Assembly: GCA_030017895.1 (NCBI GenBank)
Contig: JASEGV010000029.1
Coordinates: 1 to 36,180, forward strand
DNA length: 36,180 bases
Reading direction: 5' to 3'
Source: Bacteroidota bacterium
GTDB taxonomy: Bacteria; Bacteroidota; Ignavibacteria; UBA10030; BY39
The notes beneath the pieces were generated by a model. It searched no databases and was not told the DNA's origin. It saw only the letters and a program-made list of their open reading frames with translations. Below are positions 3,343-33,108 of the stretch, one piece after another. The translations under genes and the position numbers were made by a program. Positions within the stretch are counted from its first letter, which is position 1, and each line of letters opens with the position of its first letter.

Positions 3343-4116
3343 ATGGAATATATTATCATTTCATTAGCTGCATTTTTAACTTCAGGTTTAACTTTATTCT
3401 CCGGATTCGGTCTCGGCACTTTACTGATGCCTGTGTTTGCAATATTTTTTCCAATCCATATTGCTGTAGGTATGACGGCGCTTGTTCACTTTGCGAATAA
3501 TATTTTCAAACTCGCCCTCGTCGGGAGGGAAGCCGATATATCTACAGTTATACGTTTTGGATTGCCTGCTATTCTCGCCGCCTTTGTAGGTGCGTTCCTT
3601 CTCCAATGGCTGTCCGATTTACAGCCGCTATTTGGTTATTCGCTTTTTGGAAATAATTTCCAAATAATGCCGGTCAAACTTATTATCGCAATCTTGATGT
3701 TATGTTTTGCATTGTTCGAACTGTTGCCGCACTTCGAAAAATTATCTTTCCCCAAAAAATATTTGCCAATCGGTGGTGTGTTGAGTGGCTTCTTCGGCGG
3801 ACTTTCAGGTCATCAAGGTGCCCTTCGGAGTGCATTTCTCATAAAAACCGGTATGTCAAAAGAAAGCTTCATCGGAACAGGTGTCGTGATCGCCTGCCTG
3901 ATTGATGCAACCCGCCTCTCAGTTTATTCGGGTCATTTTGCTGTCGCAGGTATCGCAGATAACTCGATTTTACTCGCTTGTGCCACTTTGGCAGCGTTTT
4001 TAGGCGCCTTTATAGGTAATCGACTGATAAAAAAAATCACTTTATCCATAGTTAAAATTATTGTAGCGATTATGCTTTTTGTAATTGCACTCGGATTAGG
4101 AACAGGATTAATTTAG
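3343..4116 (+). CDS. TSUP-family (TauE/SafE) membrane transporter
   Basis: A 257-residue, highly hydrophobic protein with about eight predicted membrane segments in two halves. It has the glycine-rich start SGLTLFSGFGLGTLLMP and the second-half repeat GGVLSGFFGGLSGHQGALRS that mark TauE/SafE (TSUP) permeases. Family members export or import sulfite, sulfoacetate, sulfonates or other small organic anions across the inner membrane; the substrate here cannot be read from sequence. Length is usual for the family. It starts with ATG and sits alone between uvrA and the trp leader. The trp promoter begins only six bases after its stop, and I see no separate terminator after it, so readthrough into the trp leader is possible. 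Confidence 0.85.
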   Translation: MEYIIISLAAFLTSGLTLFSGFGLGTLLMPVFAIFFPIHIAVGMTALVHFANNIFKLALVGREADISTVIRFGLPAILAAFVGAFLLQWLSDLQPLFGYSLFGNNFQIMPVKLIIAILMLCFALFELLPHFEKLSFPKKYLPIGGVLSGFFGGLSGHQGALRSAFLIKTGMSKESFIGTGVVIACLIDATRLSVYSGHFAVAGIADNSILLACATLAAFLGAFIGNRLIKKITLSIVKIIVAIMLFVIALGLGTGLI

Positions 4117-4121
4117 AAAAC

Positions 4122-4150
4122 TTGACACATACAAATTATTTTTGTATAAT
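4122..4150 (+). promoter_or_regulatory. Consensus-like promoter of the aromatic operon
   Basis: TTGACA at 4122-4127 and TATAAT at 4145-4150 with a 17-base spacer, both boxes identical to the sigma-70 consensus. Transcription would start near 4157, about 11 bases before the leader ORF. The same bases also read as TTG-N20-TAnn, the spacing of the other promoters in the window. A strong constitutive promoter is what a termination-controlled operon needs. Confidence 0.8.
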
Positions 4151-4167
4151 GTAAAAGAATTTTTACT

Positions 4168-4260
4168 ATGCAAAAAATAAACACCATATATTATACTTAT
4201 TACCGTCAGGCATTTTACTACCCTTATTGGTGGTGCGTATCATTTCGTAAATGGTGTTGA
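4168..4260 (+). CDS. trpL: Aromatic-rich leader peptide of the trp/tyr operon
   Basis: A 30-codon ORF starting at ATG 4168 and ending with TGA 4258-4260, about 11 bases after the predicted transcription start. Twelve of 30 codons are aromatic: seven Tyr, two Phe and three Trp. Its core reads RQAFYYPYWWC, with a tandem Trp pair at 4228-4233 and a third Trp codon at 4252-4254, and two Tyr pairs sit near the start. This composition is far from chance and is the hallmark of a ribosome-mediated attenuation leader. Unlike the enterobacterial TrpL it also carries many Tyr codons, which fits an operon that includes tyrA and DAHP synthase. No strong Shine-Dalgarno is seen, only a purine run (AAAAGAA, 4153-4159). 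I infer the function from composition and position; translation is not shown. Confidence 0.82.
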   Translation: MQKINTIYYTYYRQAFYYPYWWCVSFRKWC

Positions 4261-4335
4261 TAGATTAATTGCAGAATAATTTTAATAAATTATTAAACAA
4301 TAGAAAGCCCGTCTTGAAACACCAAGATGGGCTTT
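4180..4335 (+). promoter_or_regulatory. Candidate attenuator RNA with competing pairings
   Basis: Complementary segments lie around the leader ORF. AACACCAT (4180-4187) can pair over 8 bp with ATGGTGTT (4251-4258). The last seven bases of that second segment can also pair with AACACCA (4318-4324), in the loop and 3' arm of the terminator. A local hairpin, ATCATTT (4239-4245) with AAATGGT (4249-4255, one G-U pair), overlaps the second segment, and its 5' arm would be covered by a ribosome stalled at the Trp pair. An AT-only hairpin (AATAATTT/AAATTATT, 4275-4294) follows. This resembles a 1:2 / 2:3 / 3:4 switch, but the 2:3 helix is short and does not fully exclude the terminator, so the exact fold is uncertain. 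Confidence 0.5.
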
Positions 4336-4344
4336 TTAGTTTTT
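4304..4344 (+). terminator. Intrinsic terminator (attenuator) before trpE
   Basis: AAAGCCCGTCTTG (4304-4316) pairs with CAAGATGGGCTTT (4323-4335): 13 bp with a single G-U pair and a 6-base loop. It is followed by TTTTT, AG, TTTTT. The end lies about 15 bases before the trpE start and 44 bases after the leader stop codon, the standard place for an attenuator rather than an end-of-operon terminator. trpE has its own AAAAGG ribosome binding site at 4345-4350, immediately after the U-tract. Confidence 0.88.
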
Positions 4345-4358
4345 AAAAGGCAACAAAT

Positions 4359-5819
4359 ATGAAATTTGATGAATTTAAATCGCTTGCACACACACATAAA
4401 ATTGTTACAATCACTGAAACGATGTTAGCCGATATGTTAACTCCTGTTTCAGCTTATATGCGATTACGACGGAATGCGGAAACGTCATTCTTATTCGAAA
4501 GCGTTGAAGGTGATGAAAAGATTGCCCGCTATTCATTTCTTGGACGCAGCCCGACTTTTACAATCCGTAATAAAAATTTTGAAACCCGGATATCAAATCA
4601 TAACAACGAAAGAATATTGTACGATAATTATTTTGATATCTTAACGAACTTGATTGCGCAATATAACATCAGCCGAACCCCAAACACTTCCCGTTTTGCA
4701 GGCGGGTTTGTCGGCTATTTCGGTTACGATATTATCAGGAATATCGAGAAGGTTCCAAACAAAAATCCAAACGATATCACCGCTGACGAAACAATCTTAG
4801 GCTTTTTCCCAACCGTCCTGATTTTCGATCATCTCAAACATCAAATAATTTTTCTATCGAATATATTCATTGATGATAATCTTTCCCTTGAGTTACAATA
4901 TGATACAGCTATGAACGAAATCGCAATGTTAAAAAATGATTTAATACAGAGTGAATTCAGATTGGGAAATTTTTCCGCAAACATATCCGATTTAAAATCC
5001 AATACTACGCAGACAGAATTTGAAGCAAATGTTTTAAGAGCAAAATCTTACATTGGTGCGGGGGATATTTTTCAGGTTGTCTTATCTCAACGTTTTGAAA
5101 TTCCTTACAGCGGTGATGATTTTAATGTTTATCGTGCATTAAGAGTTGTGAACCCTTCGCCGTATCTTTACTATTTGGATTTTGGAGATTGTAGAGTAAT
5201 TGGTTCATCGCCGGAAATTCTTGTCAGAAAAGAAAATGATTACGCCGAAGTTTATCCGATAGCCGGCACCCGGAAGCGTGGCACCAACGAACAAGAAGAT
5301 AAGCAACTTGAAAACGATCTCTTGAAAGATGAAAAAGAATTAGCTGAACACATTATGCTCGTAGATTTAGGAAGGAACGATTTAGGCAGAATCTGCAAAC
5401 CGGGAACTGTAAAAGTTGATGAGTTGATGAAGATCGTTCGATACTCTCATGTTATGCACATCGCCTCGCGGGTTTCAGGTATTATCGAAGAGAATAAAAC
5501 AGCGATTGATGTTTTGAAAGCAGCTTTTCCGGCAGGAACAGTTTCGGGTGCGCCTAAAATCCGGGCAATGGAAATTATCGATGAATTGGAAAACGTTCAG
5601 CGTGGAATTTATGCTGGCGGCATCGGTTACATCGACCTTTCCGGAAATTTAGATACTTGCATTGCTATCCGGACAATCTTTGCAAAAAATGGCGTCCTGT
5701 ATTTTCAAAGCGGTGCCGGCATTGTCGCTGATTCAATTCCGGTAAATGAATATCAAGAAACACTTCACAAATCAGAAGCAATTGTTGAAGCAATTAAATT
5801 AGCGAAAGGATTAAAATGA
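4359..5819 (+). CDS. trpE: Anthranilate synthase component I
   Basis: Converts chorismate and ammonia or glutamine to anthranilate, the first step of the Trp branch, with TrpG as glutaminase partner. The 486-residue protein has the chorismate-binding C-terminal domain: SPEILV, IAGTRKRG, and the diagnostic AFPAGTVSGAPKIRAMEII. The N-terminal FLFESVEG (residues 44-51) corresponds to the Trp feedback site (LLESxxG) of TrpE, so allosteric inhibition by Trp is likely. The FPAGTVSGAPK signature and the neighbouring genes favour TrpE over PabB. ATG at 4359 follows AAAAGG with 8-base spacing, directly after the attenuator. Its TGA overlaps the trpG ATG (ATGA), indicating translational coupling and matched amounts of the two subunits. 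Confidence 0.97.
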   Translation: MKFDEFKSLAHTHKIVTITETMLADMLTPVSAYMRLRRNAETSFLFESVEGDEKIARYSFLGRSPTFTIRNKNFETRISNHNNERILYDNYFDILTNLIAQYNISRTPNTSRFAGGFVGYFGYDIIRNIEKVPNKNPNDITADETILGFFPTVLIFDHLKHQIIFLSNIFIDDNLSLELQYDTAMNEIAMLKNDLIQSEFRLGNFSANISDLKSNTTQTEFEANVLRAKSYIGAGDIFQVVLSQRFEIPYSGDDFNVYRALRVVNPSPYLYYLDFGDCRVIGSSPEILVRKENDYAEVYPIAGTRKRGTNEQEDKQLENDLLKDEKELAEHIMLVDLGRNDLGRICKPGTVKVDELMKIVRYSHVMHIASRVSGIIEENKTAIDVLKAAFPAGTVSGAPKIRAMEIIDELENVQRGIYAGGIGYIDLSGNLDTCIAIRTIFAKNGVLYFQSGAGIVADSIPVNEYQETLHKSEAIVEAIKLAKGLK

Positions 5820-6385
5820 TACTCGTGATAGATAACTACGATTCTTTTACTTACAACCTTGTTCAGCTTGTAGCGGCAGTTAATGACGATTTCCGTGTTG
5901 TTCGCAACGATAAAATTACACTTGACGAAATCAAACAATTAATGCCAACGCATATTCTTATTTCTCCGGGACCAGGCAGACCGGAAAATGCAGGAATTTG
6001 TATTGATGTTATCAAACAATTCGCCGCCGATATTCCGATATTCGGCGTTTGTCTTGGGCATCAGGCAATAGGATACGCTTTCGGTTGCAAGATTGTTCGA
6101 GCACCTGTTTTGATGCACGGCAAAACTTCGATGATTTATCACGATGCAAAGTCCATCTTCCAAAATATTGAAAATCCATTTGAAGCAACACGGTATCATT
6201 CGCTCGTAATCGAACGTGAATCCATCACGCCAGACTTGGTTATAACCTCTGAAACAAAAGACGGTATTATTATGGGTGTGCGACACAATAAATATCCAAT
6301 CGAAGGAATTCAATTCCATCCCGAATCAATATTAACAAAAGTTGGTGATAAATTAATTAACAACTGGCTGCTTATAAATAAATAA
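5816..6385 (+). CDS. trpG: Anthranilate synthase component II (glutamine amidotransferase)
   Basis: Class I glutamine amidotransferase that supplies ammonia to TrpE. The 189-residue protein shows NYDSFTYNLVQ at the N-terminus, the oxyanion loop SPGPGRPENAG, nucleophile Cys79 in GVCLGHQAIG, and the His168/Glu170 pair in GIQFHPES, so the triad is complete. The length is that of a free-standing subunit; there is no fusion to TrpD as in E. coli. The start overlaps the trpE stop by four bases. Such subunits may also serve PabB in folate synthesis; no pabB is in the window, so that cannot be judged here. Confidence 0.96.
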   Translation: MILVIDNYDSFTYNLVQLVAAVNDDFRVVRNDKITLDEIKQLMPTHILISPGPGRPENAGICIDVIKQFAADIPIFGVCLGHQAIGYAFGCKIVRAPVLMHGKTSMIYHDAKSIFQNIENPFEATRYHSLVIERESITPDLVITSETKDGIIMGVRHNKYPIEGIQFHPESILTKVGDKLINNWLLINK

Positions 6386-6386
6386 T

Positions 6387-7400
6387 ATGAAAGAAATACT
6401 TAAAAAAATTTTAGAGGGAAATGATTTAGATTTCAACGATGCCTCCGACGTAATGAATTCCATTATGGCAGGTTCTGTTACTGATTCTCAAATCGGTGCT
6501 TTTCTCGCCGCAGAAAAAATAAAAGGCGAGACAGTTGAGGAGCTAACAGCTTTTGCGAAAGTTATGCGTGAAAAATCAGTAAAAATAAATTTGGCGGATA
6601 AAAATGCAATTGATATGTGCGGAACTGGGGGCGACGGACGAGGAACATTTAATATTTCGACAGTAGCTTCATTTGTTGCTGCCGGAGCCGGCGTTACAGT
6701 TGCCAAGCACGGAAATAAATCTGTTTCGAGTAGTTGCGGCAGCGCCGATTTATTGAAAGAACTTGGCGTAGATATTTCGATTGAACCTTTCAAAGTCGAA
6801 AAATGTATTAACGAAATCGGTATTGGTTTTATGTTCGCTCCAATTTTTCACCCTGCGATGAAGTTGGTCAGTAAACTACGATCCGAATTAGGAGTTAAAA
6901 CTTTTTTTAACATTATGGGTCCGCTAACTAATCCCGCAGAAGTTAATTACCAAATGATAGGTGCATACAATCTCGACGTTGCCAAAAAAATAATAGAAAT
7001 ATTGAAGCGGTTATGCACGAAGAAATCTGCCGCCTTACATTCTTCTGATGGATTAGATGAAATATCCTTGAGCGGAAAGACATGCATTTTTGAAATTGCT
7101 GAAAACGAAGACTTAAAATCGTTTGAAATTCACCCGAAAGATTTTGGACTTGAACTTTGCGATATATCCGATTTAACAGGTGGAACGCCGGAACAGAATG
7201 CAAGTATCTGTCTTGAAGTTTTGAACAATAAAAAAAATCCGAAACGCGATATAGTTTTACTAAATGCCGCTTATGCGATTTACATAAGTGGAAAAGCCGA
7301 AACGCCGCGCGATGGATTTCAAAAAGCTGTTGATTCACTCGAAAACGGGCGTGCTTGGCAAAAATTAAATCAATTAATCGAGTTCACAAAAAGTATATGA
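6387..7400 (+). CDS. trpD: Anthranilate phosphoribosyltransferase
   Basis: Transfers the phosphoribosyl group of PRPP to anthranilate. The 337-residue protein has the family's small N-terminal helical domain and then the PRPP-binding stretch MCGTGGDGRGTFNISTVAS, followed by VAKHGNKSVSSSCGSADLLKELGV (motif split across strands of the nucleoside-phosphorylase-like fold) and the Mg-binding region near DEIS. Length and motif order are standard. It starts with ATG one base after the trpG stop, and its TGA overlaps the start of trpC in an ATGA. A purine-rich stretch within the trpG end may act as its ribosome site, but no strong Shine-Dalgarno is seen. Confidence 0.96.
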   Translation: MKEILKKILEGNDLDFNDASDVMNSIMAGSVTDSQIGAFLAAEKIKGETVEELTAFAKVMREKSVKINLADKNAIDMCGTGGDGRGTFNISTVASFVAAGAGVTVAKHGNKSVSSSCGSADLLKELGVDISIEPFKVEKCINEIGIGFMFAPIFHPAMKLVSKLRSELGVKTFFNIMGPLTNPAEVNYQMIGAYNLDVAKKIIEILKRLCTKKSAALHSSDGLDEISLSGKTCIFEIAENEDLKSFEIHPKDFGLELCDISDLTGGTPEQNASICLEVLNNKKNPKRDIVLLNAAYAIYISGKAETPRDGFQKAVDSLENGRAWQKLNQLIEFTKSI

Positions 7401-8179
7401 ATGTTTTAGAAAATATTATCTCCACAAAAATTGAAGAAGTAAAGAAAAAAAAGAAAGCTATTCCCATTGCTTCTCTCGAAGCGATGGAATATTTCAAACG
7501 AAATACTTTTTCTCTTTCGGCAGCTTTAAAATATAAAAACGGAATCGGGATAATTGCTGAAATAAAAAGGAGGTCACCTTCAGCGGGTATTCTTCGAAAA
7601 GAAGTAGATATTAAAAATATGGCAGTTTCGTATCAACAAAACGGGGCTGCGGCAATTTCAGTTTTAACCGAAGAATATTATTTTAACGGTTCGTTAAATG
7701 ACCTGAAAGATGTCCGTTCTGTCGTGGATATACCAATTTTACGAAAAGATTTTATTGTAGATGAGTATGAAATCTATGAAGCCAAAGCATTTGGCGCTGA
7801 TGCTGTTTTACTAATCGCAGATTTGCTTTCGAAAGAACAATTATACCAACTCTTTTGTGCTTCGAAAAGTTTGGGCTTGGAATGTTTAGTTGAAATTCAC
7901 TCAACCGAATCAGTCGATAAACTCGATTTTAGTTTGATGAAACTTATTGGAATTAATAATCGAGACCTGATTACTTTCAGTTGCAACCTCGATACTTTTC
8001 AAAAAATAGCTAAATTATTGCCGGAAGATACAGTATTGGTCAGCGAAAGCGGAATTAAAAATGTAGATGACTTAATAAAATTACAAAACGATGGCGCCAA
8101 GGGGGCGCTCATTGGTGAGTATTTTATGACTTCCGAAAATCCCGGCTCAGCACTATCAGAATTTATTTCATCAATATGA
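7397..8179 (+). CDS. trpC: Indole-3-glycerol phosphate synthase
   Basis: Closes the indole ring from carboxyphenylamino-deoxyribulose phosphate, a TIM-barrel reaction. Visible motifs are IIAEIKRRSPSAG (catalytic Lys and substrate loop), ILRKDFIVDEYEIYEAKAFGADAVLLI, LVEIHS, IGINNRDL and VSESGI. The open frame could begin at a TTG at 7355, which would overlap trpD by 46 bases. ATG 7397 gives the usual start MNVLENIISTKIEEV, a 260-residue protein of normal length and an ATGA overlap with trpD, so I chose it. It is a free-standing enzyme, not fused to TrpF as in E. coli. Its stop again overlaps the next start by four bases. Confidence 0.95.
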   Translation: MNVLENIISTKIEEVKKKKKAIPIASLEAMEYFKRNTFSLSAALKYKNGIGIIAEIKRRSPSAGILRKEVDIKNMAVSYQQNGAAAISVLTEEYYFNGSLNDLKDVRSVVDIPILRKDFIVDEYEIYEAKAFGADAVLLIADLLSKEQLYQLFCASKSLGLECLVEIHSTESVDKLDFSLMKLIGINNRDLITFSCNLDTFQKIAKLLPEDTVLVSESGIKNVDDLIKLQNDGAKGALIGEYFMTSENPGSALSEFISSI

Positions 8180-8808
8180 AGTGTCTCGTAAAAATATGTG
8201 GTATCACAAATTTAAAGGATGCTGTAGCATCCATCGAATCGGGTGCAGATGCGATTGGATTTATTTTTTACAAAAAAAGTAAACGCTGCGTATCACCTTC
8301 AATCGTCGCAGATATTATTAAAAATATTCCTTCCAATATTTTTAAGGTCGGTGTTTTTGTGAATGAGTCGGCATCGAACATCAATACAATTGTTGAACAG
8401 ACAGGTATCAATATTGCCCAACTTCACGGCGACGAAGAACCGAAAGATTGTTCTCAATATAAATTATGTGTTTGGAAAGGTGTTCGCCTGAAAGACGAAA
8501 CCGAAATTGAACAATTAAATTTATTCACTCAGTTTTCGGTTTGTGCGTTCGTGTTTGATGCACATTTCAACGGAGAGTATGGTGGAACTGGTGTTTTAAG
8601 TGATTGGAATTTAGCAAAACTTGCTGCCAGTAAATATCGAATTATACTTTCAGGCGGGTTGAAACCTGATAACATTCAAGCGGCAATCAATGCTGTTCGA
8701 CCATACGGAGTAGATATTAATAGCGGAGTTGAAACTTCGCCCGGTAAAAAAAATTTGTTTAAAATAAAAACTTTTATAAATGCAGTCAGGAGTATCGAAT
8801 TATGTTAG
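8176..8808 (+). CDS. trpF: Phosphoribosylanthranilate isomerase
   Basis: Amadori isomerization of phosphoribosylanthranilate, a small TIM barrel. The 210-residue protein opens with [12 protein letters not shown] (the catalytic Cys in KICG), followed by [29 protein letters not shown], and a C-terminal phosphate-binding [10 protein letters not shown] and GVDINSGVE. Asp in FDAH (around residue 125-133) is the expected general acid. The ATG overlaps the trpC stop by four bases. Its TAG overlaps the start of the DAHP synthase gene by seven bases, so translation from trpE through to the DAHP synthase is likely coupled. Chemically it precedes TrpC, though the gene follows it. Confidence 0.95.
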
Positions 8809-9830
8809 TAGTAATGAAAATTGATGCATCAAAATTTGAAATAGATGCAGTAAAAACAAAGATTGCATCGCTCGGATATTCGGCTCACGAAATTCCGGGG
8901 GCTGAACGTGTTGCAATAGGTATCACCGGTAACAAGGGAAAACTCGACAAAAATCTTTTTATGGTAATGCCGGGAGTTATTGATGCAATTTCGGTTTCCA
9001 AACCATACAAACTTGTAAGCCGAGAAGTAAAACCTGATAATACTGAAATCCGTTTGGGCGATGAAATTATTGGCGGGAAAGAATTATCAATAATTGCGGG
9101 ACCTTGCTCGGTTGAAAGCCGTGAACAGATTTTAGAAATGGCTGAAATGCTGTCGTCGGTTGGTATAAAGTTTTTACGCGGCGGCGCCTACAAACCACGA
9201 ACTTCACCTTATGCGTTTCAAGGATTAAAAGAAGAAGCATTAACTTTCTTGAGTGAAGTCCGCCGGAAAACAGGAATGAAAATAGTAACGGAAGTAAAAG
9301 ATGTTGCAACGCTTCCTTATGTAGCCGAGGTAGCCGATGTTCTTCAAATTGGTGCGCGCAATATGCAAAATTTTTCTTTGTTAGAAGCTGTTGGCCGTCT
9401 AAAACATCCGGTTCTTTTGAAGCGGGGGATTTCTTCAACCATCGAAGAATTTCTGATGGCAGCCGAATATATTGTTAATCAAGGAAATTATAATGTGATT
9501 TTGTGTGAAAGAGGAATCAGAACGTTTGAAACAGCAACACGTTTTACACTCGACTTAAATGCAGTCCCGGTTGTAAAACATCTTTCGCACCTTCCAATCA
9601 TAGTCGATCCGAGCCACGGTATCGGTTTGTGGGACGGAGTTTCTTCGATGTCGATGGCGAGTATTGCAGCAGGCGCCGACGGCTTGATAATTGAAGTTCA
9701 TAAAAATCCGGAGGCTGCACTGTCCGACGGTTATCAATCGCTCAAACCTGAAAAATTCAAAGTGTTAATAAATAAACTAAAACAAATTGCCGAAGTAATG
9801 GACCGGTCACTATCATTAACAAAAAATTAG
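8802..9830 (+). CDS. aroF: 3-deoxy-7-phosphoheptulonate (DAHP) synthase with N-terminal regulatory domain
   Basis: First step of the shikimate pathway: condensation of phosphoenolpyruvate and erythrose 4-phosphate. The catalytic domain of this 342-residue protein shows [10 protein letters not shown], the substrate motif [19 protein letters not shown], and VDPSHGIG (metal-binding His). The first 80 or so residues ([20 protein letters not shown] ...) form a ferredoxin-like/ACT-type domain like that of the Thermotoga-type I-beta enzymes, where Tyr and Phe inhibit; feedback control here is an inference from that. ATG 8802 gives the family-like start MLVVMK; ATG 8814 is an alternative. Placing the pathway entry enzyme between trpF and trpB, under the trp leader, ties shikimate flux to Trp/Tyr need. 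Confidence 0.93.
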
Positions 9831-9832
9831 TT

Positions 9833-11041
9833 ATGACGAATACAGAATATAATTACCCAGACAACCGCGGATACTTTGGTGAATTTGGCGGCAAATTTGT
9901 GCCCGAGACTTTGATTTACGCACTCGAAGAATTGGAAACCAAATATCTTGAATTAAAAAATGATCCGGCATTTCAAAAAAAGTTTTATCAATTATTAAAG
10001 CATTTTGCAGGCAGACCTACTCCCCTTTATTTTGCAGAACGCCTGACTGAAAAATATCAAGGTGCAAAAGTATATTTGAAACGTGAAGATTTGTGTCATA
10101 CGGGGGCACATAAAATAAATAACGCAATCGGGCAAATCTTACTCGCAAAACAATTAGGAAAAAACCGGATCATTGCTGAAACAGGCGCAGGTCAGCACGG
10201 AGTAGCTACAGCGACAGTTGCGGCAAAATTGGGTTTAGAATGTATTGTGTATATGGGCGCCGAAGATATTGTTCGTCAGAAAACCAATGTGGGGCGGATG
10301 AAATTGTTAGGTGCTGAAGTTCGCTCGGTGGAATCCGGTTCAAAAACTTTGAAGGATGCAGCAAACGAAGCAATCCGCGATTGGGTTACAAATATTCGCA
10401 GCACACATTATATTATCGGTTCAGTAATCGGTCCGCATCCGTATCCGATGCTTGTGCGAGATTTTCAAACTGTAATTGGCAGCGAAGCGAAATCTCAAAT
10501 TCTTGAAATCGAAAACCGTCTTCCTGATTATTTGCTTGCAAGTGTCGGCGGCGGCAGCAACTCAATCGGTTTGTTCCATAATTTTTTGGATGACGGAGTG
10601 AAAATGATTGGAGTGGAAGCGGGTGGGTTGGGTATTACAACCAATCAACACGCGGCAACTTTAACATTGGGTAAACCCGGAGTTCTCCACGGCAATTTAA
10701 GTTACCTCTTACAGGATGAAAATGGACAGATACTTCCTGCTCATTCCGTCTCCGCCGGACTCGATTATCCCGGTGTAGGTCCCGAACACAGCTTTTTAAA
10801 AGATATGGGGAGAGTTCAATATGTTTCAGTAACAGATAATGAAGCACTTGAAGCTGCAATCGAACTGACTCAAACCGAAGGTATCATCCCGGCTCTCGAA
10901 TCGGCGCACGCTCTGGCTTATTTAAAAACACTGCTGCCTGATACATCGAAAGATGTGATCGTAATTTTGAATTTGTCGGGCAGAGGTGATAAAGATATGG
11001 ATACGATATTAAAATATTTTGAAGACCGGAGGACTCGATGA
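9833..11041 (+). CDS. trpB: Tryptophan synthase beta subunit
   Basis: PLP enzyme that condenses indole with serine. The 402-residue protein contains [15 protein letters not shown] at the N-terminus, PLP Lys94 in [26 protein letters not shown], the phosphate-binding GGGSNSIG, and [12 protein letters not shown]. The last, together with length and the N-terminal motif, indicates the canonical TrpB1 class that pairs with TrpA rather than the TrpB2 type. It starts two bases after the DAHP synthase stop and overlaps trpA by four bases (ATGA), consistent with a 1:1 complex with TrpA. Confidence 0.97.
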
Positions 11042-11868
11042 ATCGACTCCCTCAGAAAATGTCTGAACTCATTAAAAATAAAAGAAAAGCGTTAGCAATG
11101 TTCGTTACGGCGGGATATCCAACTATAGACTTAACGCCACAAATAGTTTTCGAACTTGAAAAAGCTGGAGCCGATATCATCGAATTGGGAATTCCCTTTT
11201 CCGACCCGATAGCCGATGGTCCGGTAATTCAAATTGCCTCTCAAGTCGCTTTAAATAATGGAGTTACGATAACCAAAATTTGTGAAATTGTTCGCGATAT
11301 CCGTTTATTCAGTAATATTCCGATTGTTCTTATGGGTTATTACAATCCGATTTACTGTTATGGAGTTGAAAAATTTCTCGACGCTGCTGCCAATGCGGGG
11401 GTGGATGGATTAGTTGTAGCAGATTTGCCTTTAGAAGAAGCTGATAATTTTCGTAGATCGGCGTCTGCAAAAAACATATCACATATATTTTTAGCAGCAC
11501 CTACAACATCCGACATAAGATTAGTTGAGTTGGATAACGCAACTTCAGGATTTCTTTATTGTGTTTCGACTACAGGAACTACAGGGATTAGAAATAATGT
11601 AACGGCAGAAGCTGTCGAATATTTATTGAGATGCAAACAATTTGTAAAGAATAATCCCATACTTGTTGGTTTCGGAATATCATCGGGTGCAGATGTAAGA
11701 AATATTTCGAGATACGCCGACGGTGTTATTGTGGGAAGCTCTTTAATTGAAATTATTAAAAATAATTACGGCGATGGGCAAAATAATATTATGCTTGAGG
11801 AAGTTCGTAATTTCGTTATTAAGTTAAGAATAAGTTTAAATGATGGTGCAAACAATGAAGCCGGATAA
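11038..11868 (+). CDS. trpA: Tryptophan synthase alpha subunit
   Basis: Cleaves indole-3-glycerol phosphate to indole and glyceraldehyde 3-phosphate; indole is channelled to TrpB. The 276-residue TIM barrel has catalytic Glu49 in [16 protein letters not shown] and Asp60 in the same stretch, the same numbering as the Salmonella enzyme. It also has [28 protein letters not shown] and the phosphate-binding GFGISSG and GVIVGSSL. The start overlaps the trpB stop by four bases. At its 3' end it overlaps the chorismate mutase ORF by 14 to 29 bases depending on the start used there. Confidence 0.97.
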
Positions 11869-12151
11869 GAAGAAAACAACAGCTATCAACCAACTGAAAT
11901 CTATGCGAAAACTTATCGATCGTATAGATAGTCAACTTGTAAACTTAATCGCCGTACGTCAGCACTTAGCTGAAGAAATTGGAAAAATTAAAAAACAAAA
12001 TAATCTTACGATTACAAATCCGGAGCGAGAACAGCTGATACTTGAGAGGACATCGTCAATCGCTCGTAAAAAAAAGTTAGATAATAAATTTGTAAAAAAG
12101 GTTTTTCAATTAATTTTAAAACAATCACGAATAATTCAGAGAAAAGCATGA
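11855..12151 (+). CDS. aroQ: Chorismate mutase, AroQ class
   Basis: Rearranges chorismate to prephenate, the branch point to Tyr and Phe. The small all-helical protein lines up with the E. coli P-protein mutase domain: MRKLIDRIDSQLVNLIAVRQ (first active-site Arg and the Arg of the first helix), EIGKIK (Lys), PEREQLILER (Arg-Glu pair) and FQLILKQSRIIQ (C-terminal Gln). I placed the start at ATG 11855, giving 98 residues and a 14-base overlap with trpA. ATG 11840 or 11843 would add up to five residues and overlap more; no Shine-Dalgarno decides. It is a free-standing mutase whose stop overlaps the following tyrA by four bases, a split version of the fused T-protein of enterobacteria. Confidence 0.9.
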   Translation: MKPDKKKTTAINQLKSMRKLIDRIDSQLVNLIAVRQHLAEEIGKIKKQNNLTITNPEREQLILERTSSIARKKKLDNKFVKKVFQLILKQSRIIQRKA

Positions 12152-12855
12152 CAATAGGAATAATTGGTTTAGGCAGGTTTGGCAAATTAACTGCAGAGTA
12201 TTTGTCTGAATACTTTAATGTCGTAACATACGATATTAAAAAAGTTCCGTTACCTAAAAATTTAACCCGAGTTAGTTTAAAGGAAGCCGCATCTCAGCTC
12301 GTGGTTGTATTAGCGGTTCCGATTCGCCAAATGGAATCAACGCTGCAACGAATCGCGTCTTATATAAACGAGGGTGCATTGGTTTGCGATGTCAGTTCAG
12401 TAAAGGAAAAACCTGTTGAATGGATGAAAAAGTATTTGCCAAAAACTACTATGATATTAGGGACACATCCTATGTTCGGACCGGATACTGTTTTAAATGG
12501 TTTGAAAGGAAACAGTATAGTTTTGTCTCCTGTTCGCATCAAATCGAAAATTTTTGGGCACATCAAAAGAGAATTAAGAAAATTAGGACTTATAATTTAT
12601 GAGATGTTGCCGACTCAGCATGATAGACTTATGGCGGAAACACAAGCTCTAATTCATTTTATTTCAAGGGGTTATCAGTGGAGGAAAACTCAGCGACCAG
12701 CCACAAGAAGCTACATTCAGGTATCGGAAATATTCGACTATTTACTAAACGATTCAAAAGAATTATTTGAGGATATTAATAAATTCAATAGGTATGCTCG
12801 TCCGGTTCGACAGAAATTTATTAACAGTCTTTCACTGTTCGATAAAAAATTCTGA
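12148..12855 (+). CDS. tyrA: Prephenate/arogenate dehydrogenase (TyrA family), short form
   Basis: Oxidative decarboxylation of prephenate (or arogenate) on the way to tyrosine. The N-terminal Rossmann motif GIIGLGRFG, the segment VCDVSSVKEKP, GTHPMFGPD (active-site His) and the helical-domain ETQALIHFISRG are all TyrA features. At 235 residues it is shorter than the 270-370 usual for the family, having only a short helical C-terminal domain and no ACT domain, so Tyr feedback by a domain in this protein is unlikely. Cofactor (NAD or NADP) and true substrate are not settled by sequence. ATG overlaps the chorismate mutase stop (ATGA). It is the last gene of the run: a 131-base gap follows, with only a weak hairpin and no convincing U-tract. 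Confidence 0.88.
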   Translation: MTIGIIGLGRFGKLTAEYLSEYFNVVTYDIKKVPLPKNLTRVSLKEAASQLVVVLAVPIRQMESTLQRIASYINEGALVCDVSSVKEKPVEWMKKYLPKTTMILGTHPMFGPDTVLNGLKGNSIVLSPVRIKSKIFGHIKRELRKLGLIIYEMLPTQHDRLMAETQALIHFISRGYQWRKTQRPATRSYIQVSEIFDYLLNDSKELFEDINKFNRYARPVRQKFINSLSLFDKKF

Positions 12856-26910: not shown

Positions 26911-29276
26911 GTTCGAAAAAAGAATTTAAATATATCGGGAAAGGTGTTCCCCGGATTGATGCGGATGAAAAAGTAACCGGACAAGCACGCTATGTTTCTG
27001 ATATTTCGATGCCCGGGATGCTTCATGCAAAAATGTTAACATCATCAGTGGCTCACGCAAAAATAAAAAAGATTGATACATCGAAAGCGAAAGCGTTGGA
27101 TGGCGTGGTTGCAGTTCTTACTGGTGAAGAGTTAGATTATAATGTGGGATTGTATCTTGTAGATAAACGGATTCTTGCCCGCGACAAAGTCCGTTATCAA
27201 GGCGAACCGGTTGCTGCGGTTGCAGCCGAAACTTTAGAAATAGCAGAAAAAGCCATCAAGTTAATCGAGGTGGAATATGAACTATTCAAACCACTCCTCG
27301 ATGTTGAAGAATCGTTTAATGAAAAAGAAAATTTAATTCATCCTGATTTAGGAAATTACAGCCATTTAAAAGCAGCCTTCTTTCCGCAACCCGGAACTAA
27401 CATCTGCCACGTTTCAAAAATCCGTAAGGGTGATATTGAAAAAGGTTTTGCAGAAGCTGATGTTGTAGTAGAGCGTGAATACAATAATCCTTCGGTTCAA
27501 CATGTTCCCATGGAAACTCACGGCGCAATTGTTCAGTGGGGTGTTAGCGATAAAGTAATGATTTATACAAGTGCACAATCGCCGTTCACCGTCCGAAATC
27601 TTTTTTGCTATACTTTTAAACTGCCGCATCAAAAAGTTCGCGTAGTAGTTCCGTACGTAGGCGGCGGCTTTGGCGGCAAAGCAGGAATACATTTCGAGCC
27701 GTTAGTCGGATGTCTTTCGCGTGCAGCGGGGGGCAGACCTGTAAAGTTGATTGCCACAAGAGAAGAAGAATACAATACACTTCCGTGTCGCTGCGGACTT
27801 AAATTTAAAATCAAAACAGGTTTGAAGAAAGACGGAAAAATTACAGCACAGAAATTAGTCCTGCTTTGGAGCGCCGGCGCTTATGCCGATTACGCTGTGA
27901 ATGTTACGCGGGCTTCGGGATATTCTGCCGGCGGTCCCTACTATTACGAAAATCTTTACACTGATTCATACACAGTTTATACAAATCAGGTTTTCGGAAC
28001 TGCCTATCGTGGTTTCGGGCACGTCGAATTATTTTGGGGTTTAGAACGCCACATGGATTTCTGTGCCGGTAAACTTGGCATCGACCCGTACGAGTTCAAA
28101 AAAATAAATTTACTCCGCCCTGATAACACAACTGCTACCGGAGAAATTGTAACCGATTCATCGGGCAGTGTACGCAAATGTTTGGATGCTGTTGTTAAAG
28201 AGATTGGTTGGAACGGTATTAAAACGAAACAGGAAAGAGACCAAGAAATTAAAACCGGAAAAGTTCGCGGAAAAGGATTTGCAGTTTTACACAAAGCCCC
28301 CGCGATGCCTTCAAATACATCAAGTTCATGTATAATTAAGATGAACGAGAATGGTTCGGTAATTTTAAATGTGTCCGCAACTGATTACGGCAATGGAACT
28401 TACACGCCATTAACTCAAATTATAGCAGAGGAAATGGATATTCCTTTATCGAAAATACATGTAGCATTTGAAACCGATACCGACCGGGACCCATACGATT
28501 GGCAGACAGTCGCTTCTCGCTTTATGCCGATGGGAGGCAGAGCTGTTATTAATGCTTGTAATGAATTGAAGAAAAAGATGTCTGAAGTTGCAGCAAAAGT
28601 TTTTGAGTGTTCGCAGGATGATTTTATTTTTGGAGATGAAAAAATAATTCTTAAAAATAATACAGATAAATTTATTCAATACGAAAAATTAGCAACCGGC
28701 TATGTCTTCCCGAATGGTAACGCAATTGGCGGTCCGCTGATTGGAGTTGGAGTTTACATCGCTGAAGGTTTGACGAATCTTGATAAAGAAACTGGACAGG
28801 GTTTGCCGGCTTTCAATTGGACTTTCGGCGCTCACGGTGTTGAAGTGGAAGTCGATGTTGAGACGGGCGAATTCACTGTTTTGAAAATTGCTTCTGCACT
28901 GGATGTCGGAAAGGTGATGAACGAAGCTTCGTTGAAAGGACAACTTATCGGCGGTGTTGTTCAAGGTTTAGGTACTGCAATTTGCGAGAGATACGTTTAC
29001 AGCAACGACGGACGCTTATTAAACAAATCTTTTACTGACAATAAAATACCCACAGCGAAAGATATTCCAAATGTCTTTGTTCCGATTTTTATTGAAACTC
29101 CACACGATAAAGGAGCTTACGGTTCACGGGGAGCCGCAGAACATCCGATGATCTCTGTCGCGCCGGCTATCGGTAACGCTTTGAATGACGCTTTAGGAAT
29201 TGAACTCACTGAAATGCCGATTCGCTCCGAAGATGTTTGGTTGGCATTAAATAAAGAGAAGGCTCTTGTTGGTTAA
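26907..29276 (+). CDS. Molybdenum hydroxylase, molybdopterin-binding large subunit (xanthine dehydrogenase family)
   Basis: Catalytic subunit that hydroxylates a heterocycle or aldehyde at the Mo centre with water as oxygen donor. The 789-residue protein begins with the aldehyde-oxidase-type domain (KGVPRIDADEKVTGQARYVSDI). It has VPYVGGGFGGKAG, the substrate-side TAYRGFGHVE, and near the C-terminus RGAAEHPMISVAPAIGNA with Glu745 at the place of the essential active-site Glu. RGFG resembles purine-type enzymes rather than the carbon monoxide dehydrogenases, whose selenium/copper Cys loop is absent. The exact substrate is not determined. ATG overlaps the stop of the iron-sulfur gene by four bases, and the stop overlaps the allH-like gene, so all are probably one translational unit. 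Confidence 0.92.
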   Translation: MSSKKEFKYIGKGVPRIDADEKVTGQARYVSDISMPGMLHAKMLTSSVAHAKIKKIDTSKAKALDGVVAVLTGEELDYNVGLYLVDKRILARDKVRYQGEPVAAVAAETLEIAEKAIKLIEVEYELFKPLLDVEESFNEKENLIHPDLGNYSHLKAAFFPQPGTNICHVSKIRKGDIEKGFAEADVVVEREYNNPSVQHVPMETHGAIVQWGVSDKVMIYTSAQSPFTVRNLFCYTFKLPHQKVRVVVPYVGGGFGGKAGIHFEPLVGCLSRAAGGRPVKLIATREEEYNTLPCRCGLKFKIKTGLKKDGKITAQKLVLLWSAGAYADYAVNVTRASGYSAGGPYYYENLYTDSYTVYTNQVFGTAYRGFGHVELFWGLERHMDFCAGKLGIDPYEFKKINLLRPDNTTATGEIVTDSSGSVRKCLDAVVKEIGWNGIKTKQERDQEIKTGKVRGKGFAVLHKAPAMPSNTSSSCIIKMNENGSVILNVSATDYGNGTYTPLTQIIAEEMDIPLSKIHVAFETDTDRDPYDWQTVASRFMPMGGRAVINACNELKKKMSEVAAKVFECSQDDFIFGDEKIILKNNTDKFIQYEKLATGYVFPNGNAIGGPLIGVGVYIAEGLTNLDKETGQGLPAFNWTFGAHGVEVEVDVETGEFTVLKIASALDVGKVMNEASLKGQLIGGVVQGLGTAICERYVYSNDGRLLNKSFTDNKIPTAKDIPNVFVPIFIETPHDKGAYGSRGAAEHPMISVAPAIGNALNDALGIELTEMPIRSEDVWLALNKEKALVG

Positions 29277-30147
29277 TAATCAAATAGAAATAACTTCATA
29301 TTTAAATTCAATTCTTTCGAAAACCAATAATAGATTCTTTAACATACATTCTGTTTTTAATAAAACTGTAAATTTTTATGACGGAGAAATTTTATTAACT
29401 TTTACTTCGCCCGGTGTGCAGCTTTCACCAACGAATATCGTTATCAACGAGAGTTGGTTGTTTAATTCGGTTCATAATTTGTCACAAAATTCCGTCTGTG
29501 AATTAAATTATCCGTTATTGAGTTTCAATTCCGCCTACGACCGATTTAGTGTGTCGCTTGAAACGTGCTATGTTGTGAAGACTGAAATCGAAACACACCA
29601 TAAACTTTCGGAAAAAGATATTGAACTATTCAAGTCGAACGTTTTCAAAGTAATCGATAATCGTAACAGCATACTGAATATTTTTAATAATCATCCAACA
29701 GAAGATCCTTTGATGGAGAGGTTTAGAATTATCACACTCTCAATTCAGAAAAGCATAACTGCAAACGACTCAACTAATTTACGGAAGGAAGTGACGAAAC
29801 TTCTCGGGCTCGGAACAGGATTGACTCCTGCAGGCGATGATTTCTTGTATGGACTTTTAGCGGTCTGGAAAACTTTGGGCGGGAGAGAAAATTTTGTAGT
29901 AGAATTAGAAACATTAATAATTGAAAATAAAAATGAAATAGGAATAATCAGTTACAATATGTTAAATGCACTTATTAAAAATCATATCTACCTTCCGCTT
30001 AAATATTTGTTTCGACAAATCAACAGCGGGAAGGAATATACGAGGGAACTATCAGAGATTGCAACGTTCGGTTCATCTTCAGGGGCAGATATGATTGCAG
30101 GTCTATTGTTCGGATTAGAAAATCAGGGATATAAAATTGAAGCATAA
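29269..30147 (+). CDS. allH: DUF2877 protein, AllH (YlbF)-like oxamate carbamoyltransferase subunit
   Basis: In E. coli, AllF (FdrA), AllG (YlbE) and AllH (YlbF) together form the oxamate carbamoyltransferase of anaerobic allantoin use, which phosphorolyses oxalurate to oxamate and carbamoyl phosphate. This roughly 292-residue protein shows the DUF2877 core TKLLGLGTGLTPAGDDFLYGLLAVW and a C-terminal FGSSSGADMIAGLLFGL. It stands directly beside AllF- and AllG-like genes, which supports the assignment. The start is either TTG 29266 or TTG 29269; AAGG ending at 29262 favours 29269 (six-base spacing). It overlaps the large-subunit stop and in turn overlaps the allF-like start by 11 bases. The acceptor substrate here may differ from oxamate. 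Confidence 0.8.
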   Translation: MVNNQIEITSYLNSILSKTNNRFFNIHSVFNKTVNFYDGEILLTFTSPGVQLSPTNIVINESWLFNSVHNLSQNSVCELNYPLLSFNSAYDRFSVSLETCYVVKTEIETHHKLSEKDIELFKSNVFKVIDNRNSILNIFNNHPTEDPLMERFRIITLSIQKSITANDSTNLRKEVTKLLGLGTGLTPAGDDFLYGLLAVWKTLGGRENFVVELETLIIENKNEIGIISYNMLNALIKNHIYLPLKYLFRQINSGKEYTRELSEIATFGSSSGADMIAGLLFGLENQGYKIEA

Positions 30148-31702
30148 AATTATAATCAAAAAAAATTCTTACTACGATTCAATCAGCTTGATGCAATTGT
30201 CTGATAAAGCAAAGTTGTTGCCAAACGTTCTTGATGCTGTGATATCAATGGGCACCGAGACGAATAAAAATTTTTTGAAAGAAATAAATTTGTTCGACCA
30301 GCAGTTGGACGCAGCGGGACCGAACGATTTAGTAATAGCAATTCGGATTCAAGACGAACAAGCACTTGAGAGTGTCTCGGAGTTAATCGAAAAATTATTA
30401 AATTCAAAAGAATCTTCTGAACAAAAATCAACTGATGATAAACCGGTTTCGTTTGATTACACACTGCGAAAAAATCCGGATGCGAATATAGTGCTGGTAT
30501 CAATTCCGGGTGAATATGCTTATTACGAGTCGAAAAAGGGGCTTATTGCTGATAAACACGTGATGATTTTCAGCGATAATGTTAGTATCGAACAGGAAAT
30601 TCAACTAAAAGAGATGGCAGTTTCAAAAGGTTTGCTGCTGATGGGACCTGATTGCGGAACAGCGATAATAAATGGAGTACCGCTGGCTTTTGCAAACGTT
30701 GTTCCAGAAGGTCCGATTGGAATCGTCGGAGCTTCCGGAACTGGCAGTCAACAAGTTAGCAGTTTAATCGCAAGGATGGGTTCGGGAATTACACAACTTA
30801 TCGGAACTGGCGGTAGAGATTTATCGGAAGCTGGCGGCGGAAAAATGATGCTGCTTGGAATGAAAGCGTTGAATGAAGATCCAAAAACAAAAGTAATAGT
30901 GTTGCTATCGAAACCGCCCGCAGAAGTTGTGATGGAAAAAGTTTTAACGTCAGCATCTAAATGCACCAAGCCGGTTGTTGTTTGTTTTTTAAGTGGAAGA
31001 AAAGATGTAATTGAAAAATATAAATTAATCGCTGCCGATAATCTTGAAGAGGCAGCAACAAAAGCTGTTCAGCTTGCAACAGATAAAACCATCAACGTAT
31101 CGATTCCTGAAGACGAATTATCTGCCACAGGCGGATTAGCCGAAATTGAAACAGCGAAAATGAATTCAAACCAAAAATACATACGTGGTTTGTATGCCGG
31201 CGGAACGCTTTGCGATGAATCCATAATTTATCTTCGTAAAATATTCGGAACGATTTATTCCAACACAACAATCGACACTGAGAGAAAACTTGCAGACAGC
31301 CGGATTTCGGTGATGGATACAATTATCGACCTCGGTGATGACGAATTTACAAAAGGCAAAGCTCATCCGATGATTGACCCGTCGTACAGAAAATTGCGTT
31401 TGCTAAACGAAGCAAAAGATTTTGAAGTTGCTGTTATTTTGCTGGATATAGTTTTAGGATACGGTTCTCACGAAGACCCAGCCGGTGCGATGCTTGAAAG
31501 TATAAAACAAGCAAAAGCAGAATTTGAAAATCGAGGCGGTTACCTTTCGGTGGTTGCTTCAGTTTGCGGAACTGAAGAAGACCCGCAAGTATTATCCGCA
31601 CAAGAAGCAAAACTTAAACAAGTTGGTGTAATCTGTATGCCGAGTAATTTTCAGGCAGTTAAGTTAGCGGCAAAGATCAAGGAAATAGTTTTAAAAAAAT
31701 AA
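30137..31702 (+). CDS. allF: FdrA/AllF family protein, carbamoyltransferase subunit
   Basis: FdrA proteins have a succinyl-CoA-synthetase-alpha-like build and form part of the oxamate carbamoyltransferase with AllG and AllH. The 521-residue sequence shows the FdrA N-terminus KKNSYYDSISLMQLSDKA, then LMGPDCGTAIINGVPLAFANV and the nucleotide/CoA-type loop GPIGIVGASGTGSQQVSSLI. GTGGRDLSEAGGGKM follows, and the second domain has IRGLYAGGTLCDES and GKAHPMIDPSYR. The order and length match the family (E. coli FdrA is about 555 residues). The start is TTG 30137, with AGGGA at 30125-30129 seven bases upstream. It lies between AllH-like and AllG-like genes with overlap or near-zero spacing, as expected for a complex. 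Confidence 0.88.
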   Translation: MKHKIIIKKNSYYDSISLMQLSDKAKLLPNVLDAVISMGTETNKNFLKEINLFDQQLDAAGPNDLVIAIRIQDEQALESVSELIEKLLNSKESSEQKSTDDKPVSFDYTLRKNPDANIVLVSIPGEYAYYESKKGLIADKHVMIFSDNVSIEQEIQLKEMAVSKGLLLMGPDCGTAIINGVPLAFANVVPEGPIGIVGASGTGSQQVSSLIARMGSGITQLIGTGGRDLSEAGGGKMMLLGMKALNEDPKTKVIVLLSKPPAEVVMEKVLTSASKCTKPVVVCFLSGRKDVIEKYKLIAADNLEEAATKAVQLATDKTINVSIPEDELSATGGLAEIETAKMNSNQKYIRGLYAGGTLCDESIIYLRKIFGTIYSNTTIDTERKLADSRISVMDTIIDLGDDEFTKGKAHPMIDPSYRKLRLLNEAKDFEVAVILLDIVLGYGSHEDPAGAMLESIKQAKAEFENRGGYLSVVASVCGTEEDPQVLSAQEAKLKQVGVICMPSNFQAVKLAAKIKEIVLKK

Positions 31703-31707
31703 AAATA

Positions 31708-33108
31708 ATGTTACAAAAAATTAAAGAATTATTCTCAAATAATATATCTGTAATAAATCTGGGAATCGAGTCATTCTCTACCGATTTACAATCGCAGAAT
31801 GTAAAATCGATACACGTTCGATGGAAACCGCCGGCATCAGGAAATCAGGAGCTGATAAATCTATTATCGGCACTTTATACTGATGAAGTAGAATCTGCAA
31901 ACCTTAAAGTTCTTGAAATTATAGCAAACGGTCATCCGAAACTTATTGGGTTAGGAATTGCTAAAGAAGTGATTCCAAATTTTACTGAGAAAACAATTTT
32001 GCATGCCGGCCCACCGGTAACTTGGAAAAATATGTGCGGACCTATGCGCGGCGCCGTGATTGGGGGTTTGATATACGAAGGTTTAGCCAAAGAGGTTAAT
32101 GATGCAGAAAAGATTGCATCGACTGAAATTACATTTTCACCCTGCCATCATTTCCGTACAGTCGGGCCGATGGCAGGAATTGTTACCGCCTCAATGCCGG
32201 TTTGGATTGTAAAGAACGATGCTTATGGAAATTTTGCTTATGCAACGATGAACGAAGGACTTGGAAAAGTTCTGAGATTCGGGGCTTACGGTGCAGAAGT
32301 TATCCAACGACTCAACTGGATGCGAGATGAATTGTATCCAATTTTAAAACAGTCATTAGACATAAAGGGTGAAATAGATTTGCGAATATTAATTTCACAA
32401 GCCCTTCAGATGGGAGATGAATGTCATAACCGGAACAAAGCATTCACATCACTTTTCCTTCGCGAAATCGCTCCAGCAATTGCACGGACTGATTTTTCAA
32501 ACGAACAAAAGGCAAAAGTTCTTGAATTCATACATACGAACGACCATTTCGGCTTAAATCTATCCATGCCCGCGAGCAAATCTATTATGGAAGCGGCTGA
32601 GGGGATCGAAAATTCTACTATTGTTACAACGATGGCACGCAATGGAACTGAATTCGGAATTCGTGTTGCCGGATCAAAAGGCAAATGGTTTACTGCTAAA
32701 TCGCCAAAAGTGCGAGGATTATATTTCCCCGGTTACACAGAAAACGATGCTGCGCTTGACCTTGGCGATTCGGTGATTACCGAGACGACAGGAATCGGCG
32801 GGTTTGCTATGGCTTGTGCACCAGCGATTGTTGGTTTCGTCGGTGGCAAAGCTTCGGATGCTCTTGATTATTCAGAACAAATGTATCAAATAACATTATC
32901 GGAGAGTAAACATTTTCAAATTCCTGCTTTGAATTTTCGAGGAACAGCTACGGGCATCGACATACGCAAGGTAATCGAAACCGGAATCTTACCGATAATT
33001 AACACAGGCATTGCTCACAAAAACGCGGGTGTCGGGCAAGTCGGTGCCGGACTTGTTAATCCTCCAATGGAGTGTTTCGAAAAAGCATTACAAAATTTTA
33101 AAAAATAA
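31708..33108 (+). CDS. allG: DUF1116 protein, AllG (YlbE)-like carbamoyltransferase subunit
   Basis: A 466-residue DUF1116 protein, the third partner of the AllFGH carbamoyltransferase in E. coli. Diagnostic stretches are VRWKPPASGNQELI, AGPPVTWKNMCGPMRGAVIGG, FSPCHHFRTVGPMAGIVTAS, ATMNEGLGKVLRFGAYGAEV, MARNGTEFGIRV and a C-terminal INTGIAHKNAGVGQVGAG. Several conserved His, Cys and Arg (CHHFR) could form the active site. It starts at ATG 31708, five bases after the allF-like stop, and is followed after 29 bases by the cyclase-family gene. No carbamate kinase (arcC), the usual next step from carbamoyl phosphate, is in the window. Confidence 0.88.
   Translation: MLQKIKELFSNNISVINLGIESFSTDLQSQNVKSIHVRWKPPASGNQELINLLSALYTDEVESANLKVLEIIANGHPKLIGLGIAKEVIPNFTEKTILHAGPPVTWKNMCGPMRGAVIGGLIYEGLAKEVNDAEKIASTEITFSPCHHFRTVGPMAGIVTASMPVWIVKNDAYGNFAYATMNEGLGKVLRFGAYGAEVIQRLNWMRDELYPILKQSLDIKGEIDLRILISQALQMGDECHNRNKAFTSLFLREIAPAIARTDFSNEQKAKVLEFIHTNDHFGLNLSMPASKSIMEAAEGIENSTIVTTMARNGTEFGIRVAGSKGKWFTAKSPKVRGLYFPGYTENDAALDLGDSVITETTGIGGFAMACAPAIVGFVGGKASDALDYSEQMYQITLSESKHFQIPALNFRGTATGIDIRKVIETGILPIINTGIAHKNAGVGQVGAGLVNPPMECFEKALQNFKK

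Follow-up and report, generated by a model that had tools for sequence, protein, structure and literature searches.

How is an operon regulated when it makes both Trp and the last enzymes on the way to Tyr? A 36,180-nucleotide stretch of contig JASEGV010000029.1 from a Bacteroidota bacterium, which was analyzed whole and is called the window here, raises this question because a short open reading frame (ORF) crowded with Tyr and Trp codons lies just ahead of trpE. Pfam and NCBIfam matches gave the following operon.

4359 to 12855, plus strand: controlled operon, trpE to tyrA
4359 to 5819, plus strand: trpE
5816 to 6385, plus strand: trpG
6387 to 7400, plus strand: trpD
about 7391 to 8179, plus strand: trpC
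8176 to 8808, plus strand: trpF
8802 to 9830, plus strand: DAHP synthase
9833 to 11041, plus strand: trpB
11038 to 11868, plus strand: trpA
11840 to 12151, plus strand: chorismate mutase
12148 to 12855, plus strand: tyrA

The order is trpEGDCF-DAHP synthase-trpBA-chorismate mutase-tyrA, with neighboring genes never more than 6 bases apart. Its tyrA is the sole prephenate dehydrogenase found in the genome. The pheA gene is on a different contig, where it overlaps the preceding gene, and neither a terminator nor an aromatic leader was found in the 300 bases upstream of it. A leader was also looked for at a second DAHP synthase gene elsewhere in the genome, and none was found. Elsewhere in the window (29266 to 33105), Pfam matches to AllH and AllG, subunits of oxamate carbamoyltransferase, flank a CoA-ligase-type protein at the AllF position; reading of the ORFs placed a cyclase and an amidase after them and xanthine-dehydrogenase-like and hydantoinase-like genes before them, which is likely a purine or allantoin degradation cluster.

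Upstream of trpE, the window holds these elements.

4122 to 4150, plus strand: promoter, TTGACA-17-TATAAT, 12 of 12 consensus positions matched
4168 to 4260, plus strand: leader peptide ORF, MQKINTIYYTYYRQAFYYPYWWCVSFRKWC, supported by identity in a sister species and by related leaders in the order and phylum
4180 to 4187, plus strand: segment 1, AACACCAT, codons 5 to 7, complementary to segment 2 (minimum-energy fold; putative role)
4251 to 4265, plus strand: segment 2, AUGGUGUUGAUAGAU, end of the leader ORF, stop codon, and 5 further bases (ribosome-position folding)
4301 to 4345, plus strand: intrinsic terminator, stem 4301-4316/4323-4338, loop 4317-4322, T-rich tail
4311 to 4314 and 4318 to 4324, plus strand: segment 3, pairing with segment 2 in the antiterminator (ribosome-position folding)

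The promoter sequence occurs only once in the window, against a shuffling expectation of 0.05. The leader has 30 codons, with 7 Tyr, 3 Trp, and 2 Phe. In a draw of 29 codons at the local base composition, at least 12 aromatic residues are expected with a probability of 0.00025, and at least 12 aromatic residues including at least 3 Trp with a probability of about 5e-6. The terminator stem comprises 16 pairs, the inner 13 of which (4304-4316 with 4323-4335) include one G-U, and the leader region folds much more stably than its shuffles (z of -4.3). The trpE start codon is only 20 bases past the stem, which leaves no room for a second promoter, so transcription of the operon from 4122-4150 must cross the terminator. 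A short ORF with codons for an operon product thus lies between promoter and terminator, and between the terminator and the first structural gene, which follows it, there is no further promoter. A preliminary description of this DNA had proposed a consensus-like promoter, a leader of 30 codons with 12 aromatic ones, and a 13-bp terminator in this order before trpE, as well as DAHP synthase, chorismate mutase, and tyrA in the operon; coordinates, codon counts, and domain matches agree with it on each of these points.

The comparison with leaders upstream of trpE in related genomes, which the same description had suggested, was run, and leader ORF, aromatic codons, and terminator recur. In a sister species, the leader peptide is identical with a single synonymous change in 93 bases (98.9% DNA identity), and all 46 bases of the terminator region (4300-4345) are the same, while the operon genes, at 88 to 96% identity, are less conserved than both. 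Elsewhere in the order, both elements are again present but differ in sequence, the leaders being of the WYWSYWY type in family f2, SYWW or SYWR in f3, and WWW in f5; family f6 also has WWW leaders, with the terminator undetected. A TTGAC-type (sigma-70-type) promoter is found 34 to 46 bases 5' of the leader ATG in 15 of the 19 leaders of the order, a spacing that would put the start of several leader ORFs only a few bases from where the transcript is expected to begin. The leaders have tandem Trp codons as their constant feature. Across the phylum, most complete trp operons sampled have a Trp-tandem leader upstream, and similar leaders are present in records named as an Ignavibacteria MAG, a Balneolaceae MAG, and an uncultured Bacteroidetes MAG. 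There are also precedents in the literature. Bacteroid-trp is listed as a candidate cis-regulatory, non-riboswitch RNA of Bacteroidetes (PMC2864571), and leader-peptide attenuation has been inferred for amino acid operons of Flavobacterium (PMC9723704). Because of these precedents and the wide distribution of Trp-tandem leaders, the idea that an FCB-type genome is an unusual place for such an attenuator does not hold.

Several further observations were made in these families. In f2 (L116, 9041 to 14673; also L117, L118, L120, L121, and L123), the trp operon extends with aroB, an aroD/aroE fusion, aroA, a chorismate synthase-chorismate mutase fusion, and tyrA, bringing nearly the whole pathway from shikimate to Trp and Tyr into a single operon. 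In leaders L116, L117, L118, L119, L120, L122, and L123, the promoter spacer and -10 region are strikingly conserved as CTTCGTATCCT or close to it; this stretch is 34 to 40 bases before the leader ATG and ends 5 to 11 bases before it, which suggests a near-leaderless leader ORF or an additional regulatory site. Family f4 and part of f6 (L146-L150; L135, L137, L138, L140, L142, L144, and L145) have a trpE-trpG pair alone, with neither the rest of the trp operon nor a leader or terminator. In related families, leaders L151, L158, L166, L167, L169, L172, and L174 carry a TYY or SYY motif near codons 6 to 9 that resembles IYYTYY of the window, and most, not all, of their operons contain aroF. Family f34 (L182-L190) has WWWP leaders ahead of trp-only operons, where a simple scan for intrinsic terminators mostly finds none; another mode of termination, or a terminator missed by the scan, is possible.

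With the elements and their conservation in hand, two readings without a leader-peptide attenuator can be weighed. A TauE/SafE-type gene (3343 to 4116) runs in the same direction as trpE and ends shortly before the promoter, and RNA reading through from it would also meet the terminator. The terminator might therefore serve this gene, with trpE transcribed from its own promoter and the ORF present by chance. This we regard as scarcely credible: the gap between stem and trpE is too short for a promoter, and the recurrence of leader ORF and terminator before trpE in relatives, together with the identical peptide in the sister species, speaks against chance. Another regulator could act at the terminator instead, be it TRAP, a T-box, a riboswitch, or a protein. 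Gram-positive trp operons are indeed controlled by TRAP and T-box systems. However, TRAP, TrpR, and T-box were searched for in the genome and not found, while the controls were positive, and in an Rfam search of the window no family, known leader families included, scored at threshold. Such a regulator would also leave the conserved translated leader unexplained, and we consider it very unlikely. Ribosome-mediated attenuation through a translated leader, as put forward in the preliminary description, is almost certain in our assessment, given the anatomy, the leaders of relatives, and the modeled switch described below.

We modeled the switch by placing a ribosome at each codon of the leader in turn and folding the RNA downstream of it, with the transcript exposed to a point shortly beyond the center of the terminator hairpin. 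For the window, a ribosome at codons 6 to 24 leaves the terminator 5' arm and loop paired with upstream RNA at a level of about 0.5; with the ribosome at codon 26 this pairing is down to 0.32, at codon 29 to 0.06, and at the stop codon to 0.02. The antiterminator consists of UGGUGUU (4252-4258) paired with AACACCA (4318-4324) and AGAU (4262-4265) paired with GUCU (4311-4314). The modeled control zone runs from Tyr8 to Trp22 and contains all seven Tyr codons. Of the three Trp codons counted in the preliminary description, the tandem Trp21-Trp22 is inside this zone, but Trp29 is outside, its codon being part of segment 2 and thus of the RNA switch. A similar drop from the Trp codons to the stop codon was seen in the 15 relatives of the order that were modeled. 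Averaged over 54 leaders, upstream pairing was 0.54 for a stalled ribosome and 0.16 for one at the stop codon, and shuffling the upstream sequence gave 0.36. The leader class of the window shows the strongest effect, which is weak or absent in several distant families. An antiterminator dependent on ribosome position is therefore found in the folding model, weakly significant for the window alone, where 20 of 200 shuffles gave an equally strong antiterminator, and strongly so for the set of relatives. In family f2, 94% of antiterminator cells are paired compared with 33 to 58% when the pairing is slid, and two pairs have changed on both sides, with a borderline shuffle control for this covariation (27/500).

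The model suggests the following course of events in the cell. RNA polymerase would initiate just past 4122-4150, and a ribosome would translate the leader. When Trp or Tyr is short, the ribosome would stall between Tyr8 and Trp22, so that 4251-4265 would be available for pairing with 4311-4314 and 4318-4324 in the 5' arm and loop of the terminator; the terminator would be blocked and trpE-tyrA transcribed. With an ample supply of both, the ribosome would run on to the stop codon and cover 4251-4258, the terminator would form, and transcription would end near 4345. If the leader is not translated, segment 1 could pair with segment 2 and favor termination. This is the weakest step: the two segments pair in the full-length fold, and shorter nascent RNA without a ribosome retains an upstream pairing of 0.31, which makes termination without translation the least certain part of the scheme.

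Which amino acids the leader senses was addressed by sorting leaders by operon content. The sorting covered 75 distinct leaders from operons of clear content. In L192, the presumed leader was discarded as false. The mean number of Tyr codons per leader is 0.36 for trp-only operons, 1.37 with DAHP synthase, and 2.78 with tyrA, and the effect of tyrA on the Tyr count holds after GC content and length are taken into account (t = 5.2). The increase depends on position. Before the last Trp of the core, Tyr per residue is 0.025 in trp-only, 0.077 in trp+aroF, and 0.154 in trp+aroF+tyrA leaders, whereas after it the density is flat (0.026, 0.030, and 0.017, respectively). Excluding the window's leader, the tyrA class still differs (19/144 versus 2/119, p = 0.0004), p-values on Tyr counts treating related leaders as independent. 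This position dependence fits the switch model, because only stalls before segment 2 can antiterminate. Asn, whose codons are similarly AT-rich, does not track the operon-content series. In a quick TrpE tree, the f1, f2, and f3 leaders with tyrA in the operon group together as a single clade with an SH-aLRT support of 98%, apart from one long-branch f2 row that falls outside, so the association between Tyr and tyrA, the strongest contrast, amounts to one evolutionary event. The window's leader has Tyr codons in the control zone, matched to the Tyr gene of its operon, a pairing with a single origin. A Rhodothermota-like family (f25) is a counter-example, with two or three Tyr codons despite a trp-only operon.

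The Asn counts, the flat density downstream of the core, and the Tyr enrichment in GC-rich f2 leaders speak against an origin of the Tyr codons in AT bias. A role in sensing Phe was rejected as well, as Phe codons in the tyrA class are not enriched ahead of the Trp core and pheA, at its separate location, has no aromatic leader. Of the earlier proposal that the leader is a single sensor of several aromatic amino acids, the Phe part is consequently dropped, while combined sensing of Trp and Tyr is plausible and matched to operon content, the comparison among leaders making Tyr sensing probable.

It could still be that the tandem Trp21-Trp22 alone regulates, with the Tyr codons carried along as passengers because the leader is AT-rich or because of lineage history. 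Tandem Trp codons are, after all, what stays constant across leaders, the tyrA class is a single clade, and in Corynebacterium glutamicum the AroR leader before aroF, with Phe-Tyr-Phe codons, is reported to respond to Phe and not to Tyr (PMC11802643). Against this, the Tyr enrichment stays upstream of the Trp core and follows the gene content of the operon, it is seen in GC-rich f2 leaders too and is not followed by Asn codons, and seven of seven Tyr codons are inside the modeled control zone. The only tyrA found in the genome would, moreover, be deaf to Tyr shortage. On balance, control by Trp alone appears unlikely, though it deserves to be kept in mind, and the element is likely a ribosome-mediated transcription attenuator sensitive to the charging of both tRNA-Trp and tRNA-Tyr. 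The fuller reading joins an either/or Trp-Tyr sensor with a phylum-wide retuning of trp-leader control codons in step with recruited genes, from Trp only, through some Tyr with DAHP synthase, to Tyr-rich with tyrA; we judge it to have a reasonably better than even chance of being right.

The E. coli trpL attenuator (RF00513) has a leader peptide with tandem Trp, alternative RNA pairings, and a terminator before trpE, and the element described here is alike in all three. The differences are that the window's leader has more Tyr than Trp, that its segment 1 precedes the Trp codons whereas segment 1 of trpL overlaps them, and that its operon adds DAHP synthase, chorismate mutase, and tyrA; the Trp_leader covariance model scored 17.5 bits on the window against a gathering threshold of 41. 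In the E. coli ilvGMEDA and thr leaders, the control codons of a single leader likewise correspond to two or more of the amino acids that the operon makes, but these are branched-chain amino acids or Thr and Ile rather than aromatic ones, and the phylum is different. Attenuation of both operons is mentioned in PMC1183508. The AroR leader similarly puts aromatic codons, Tyr included, ahead of a DAHP synthase operon, for which, unlike here, no trp genes are named in the review (PMC11802643). Bacteroid-trp (RF01692) resembles our element as a Bacteroidetes cis-regulatory candidate whose name points to trp genes; its model, however, matched neither the window, where a search at threshold and a sensitive scan of the region were run, nor the genome, while a Bacteroides control genome was positive.

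The mechanism is thus classical, whereas the version with two aromatic amino acids and the matching to operon content look new: no report of a combined Trp-Tyr leader was found in the open-access literature, outside which most subscription papers lie. What the same literature offered for the FCB group was no more than a single RNA motif from Bacteroidetes and an inference of a general kind for Flavobacterium. If the proposed reading is true, trp leader-peptide attenuation would extend over a large FCB group, the phylum would offer a natural series of control codons following operon content, and one 30-residue peptide would integrate demand from two branches of a pathway, each with its own end product.
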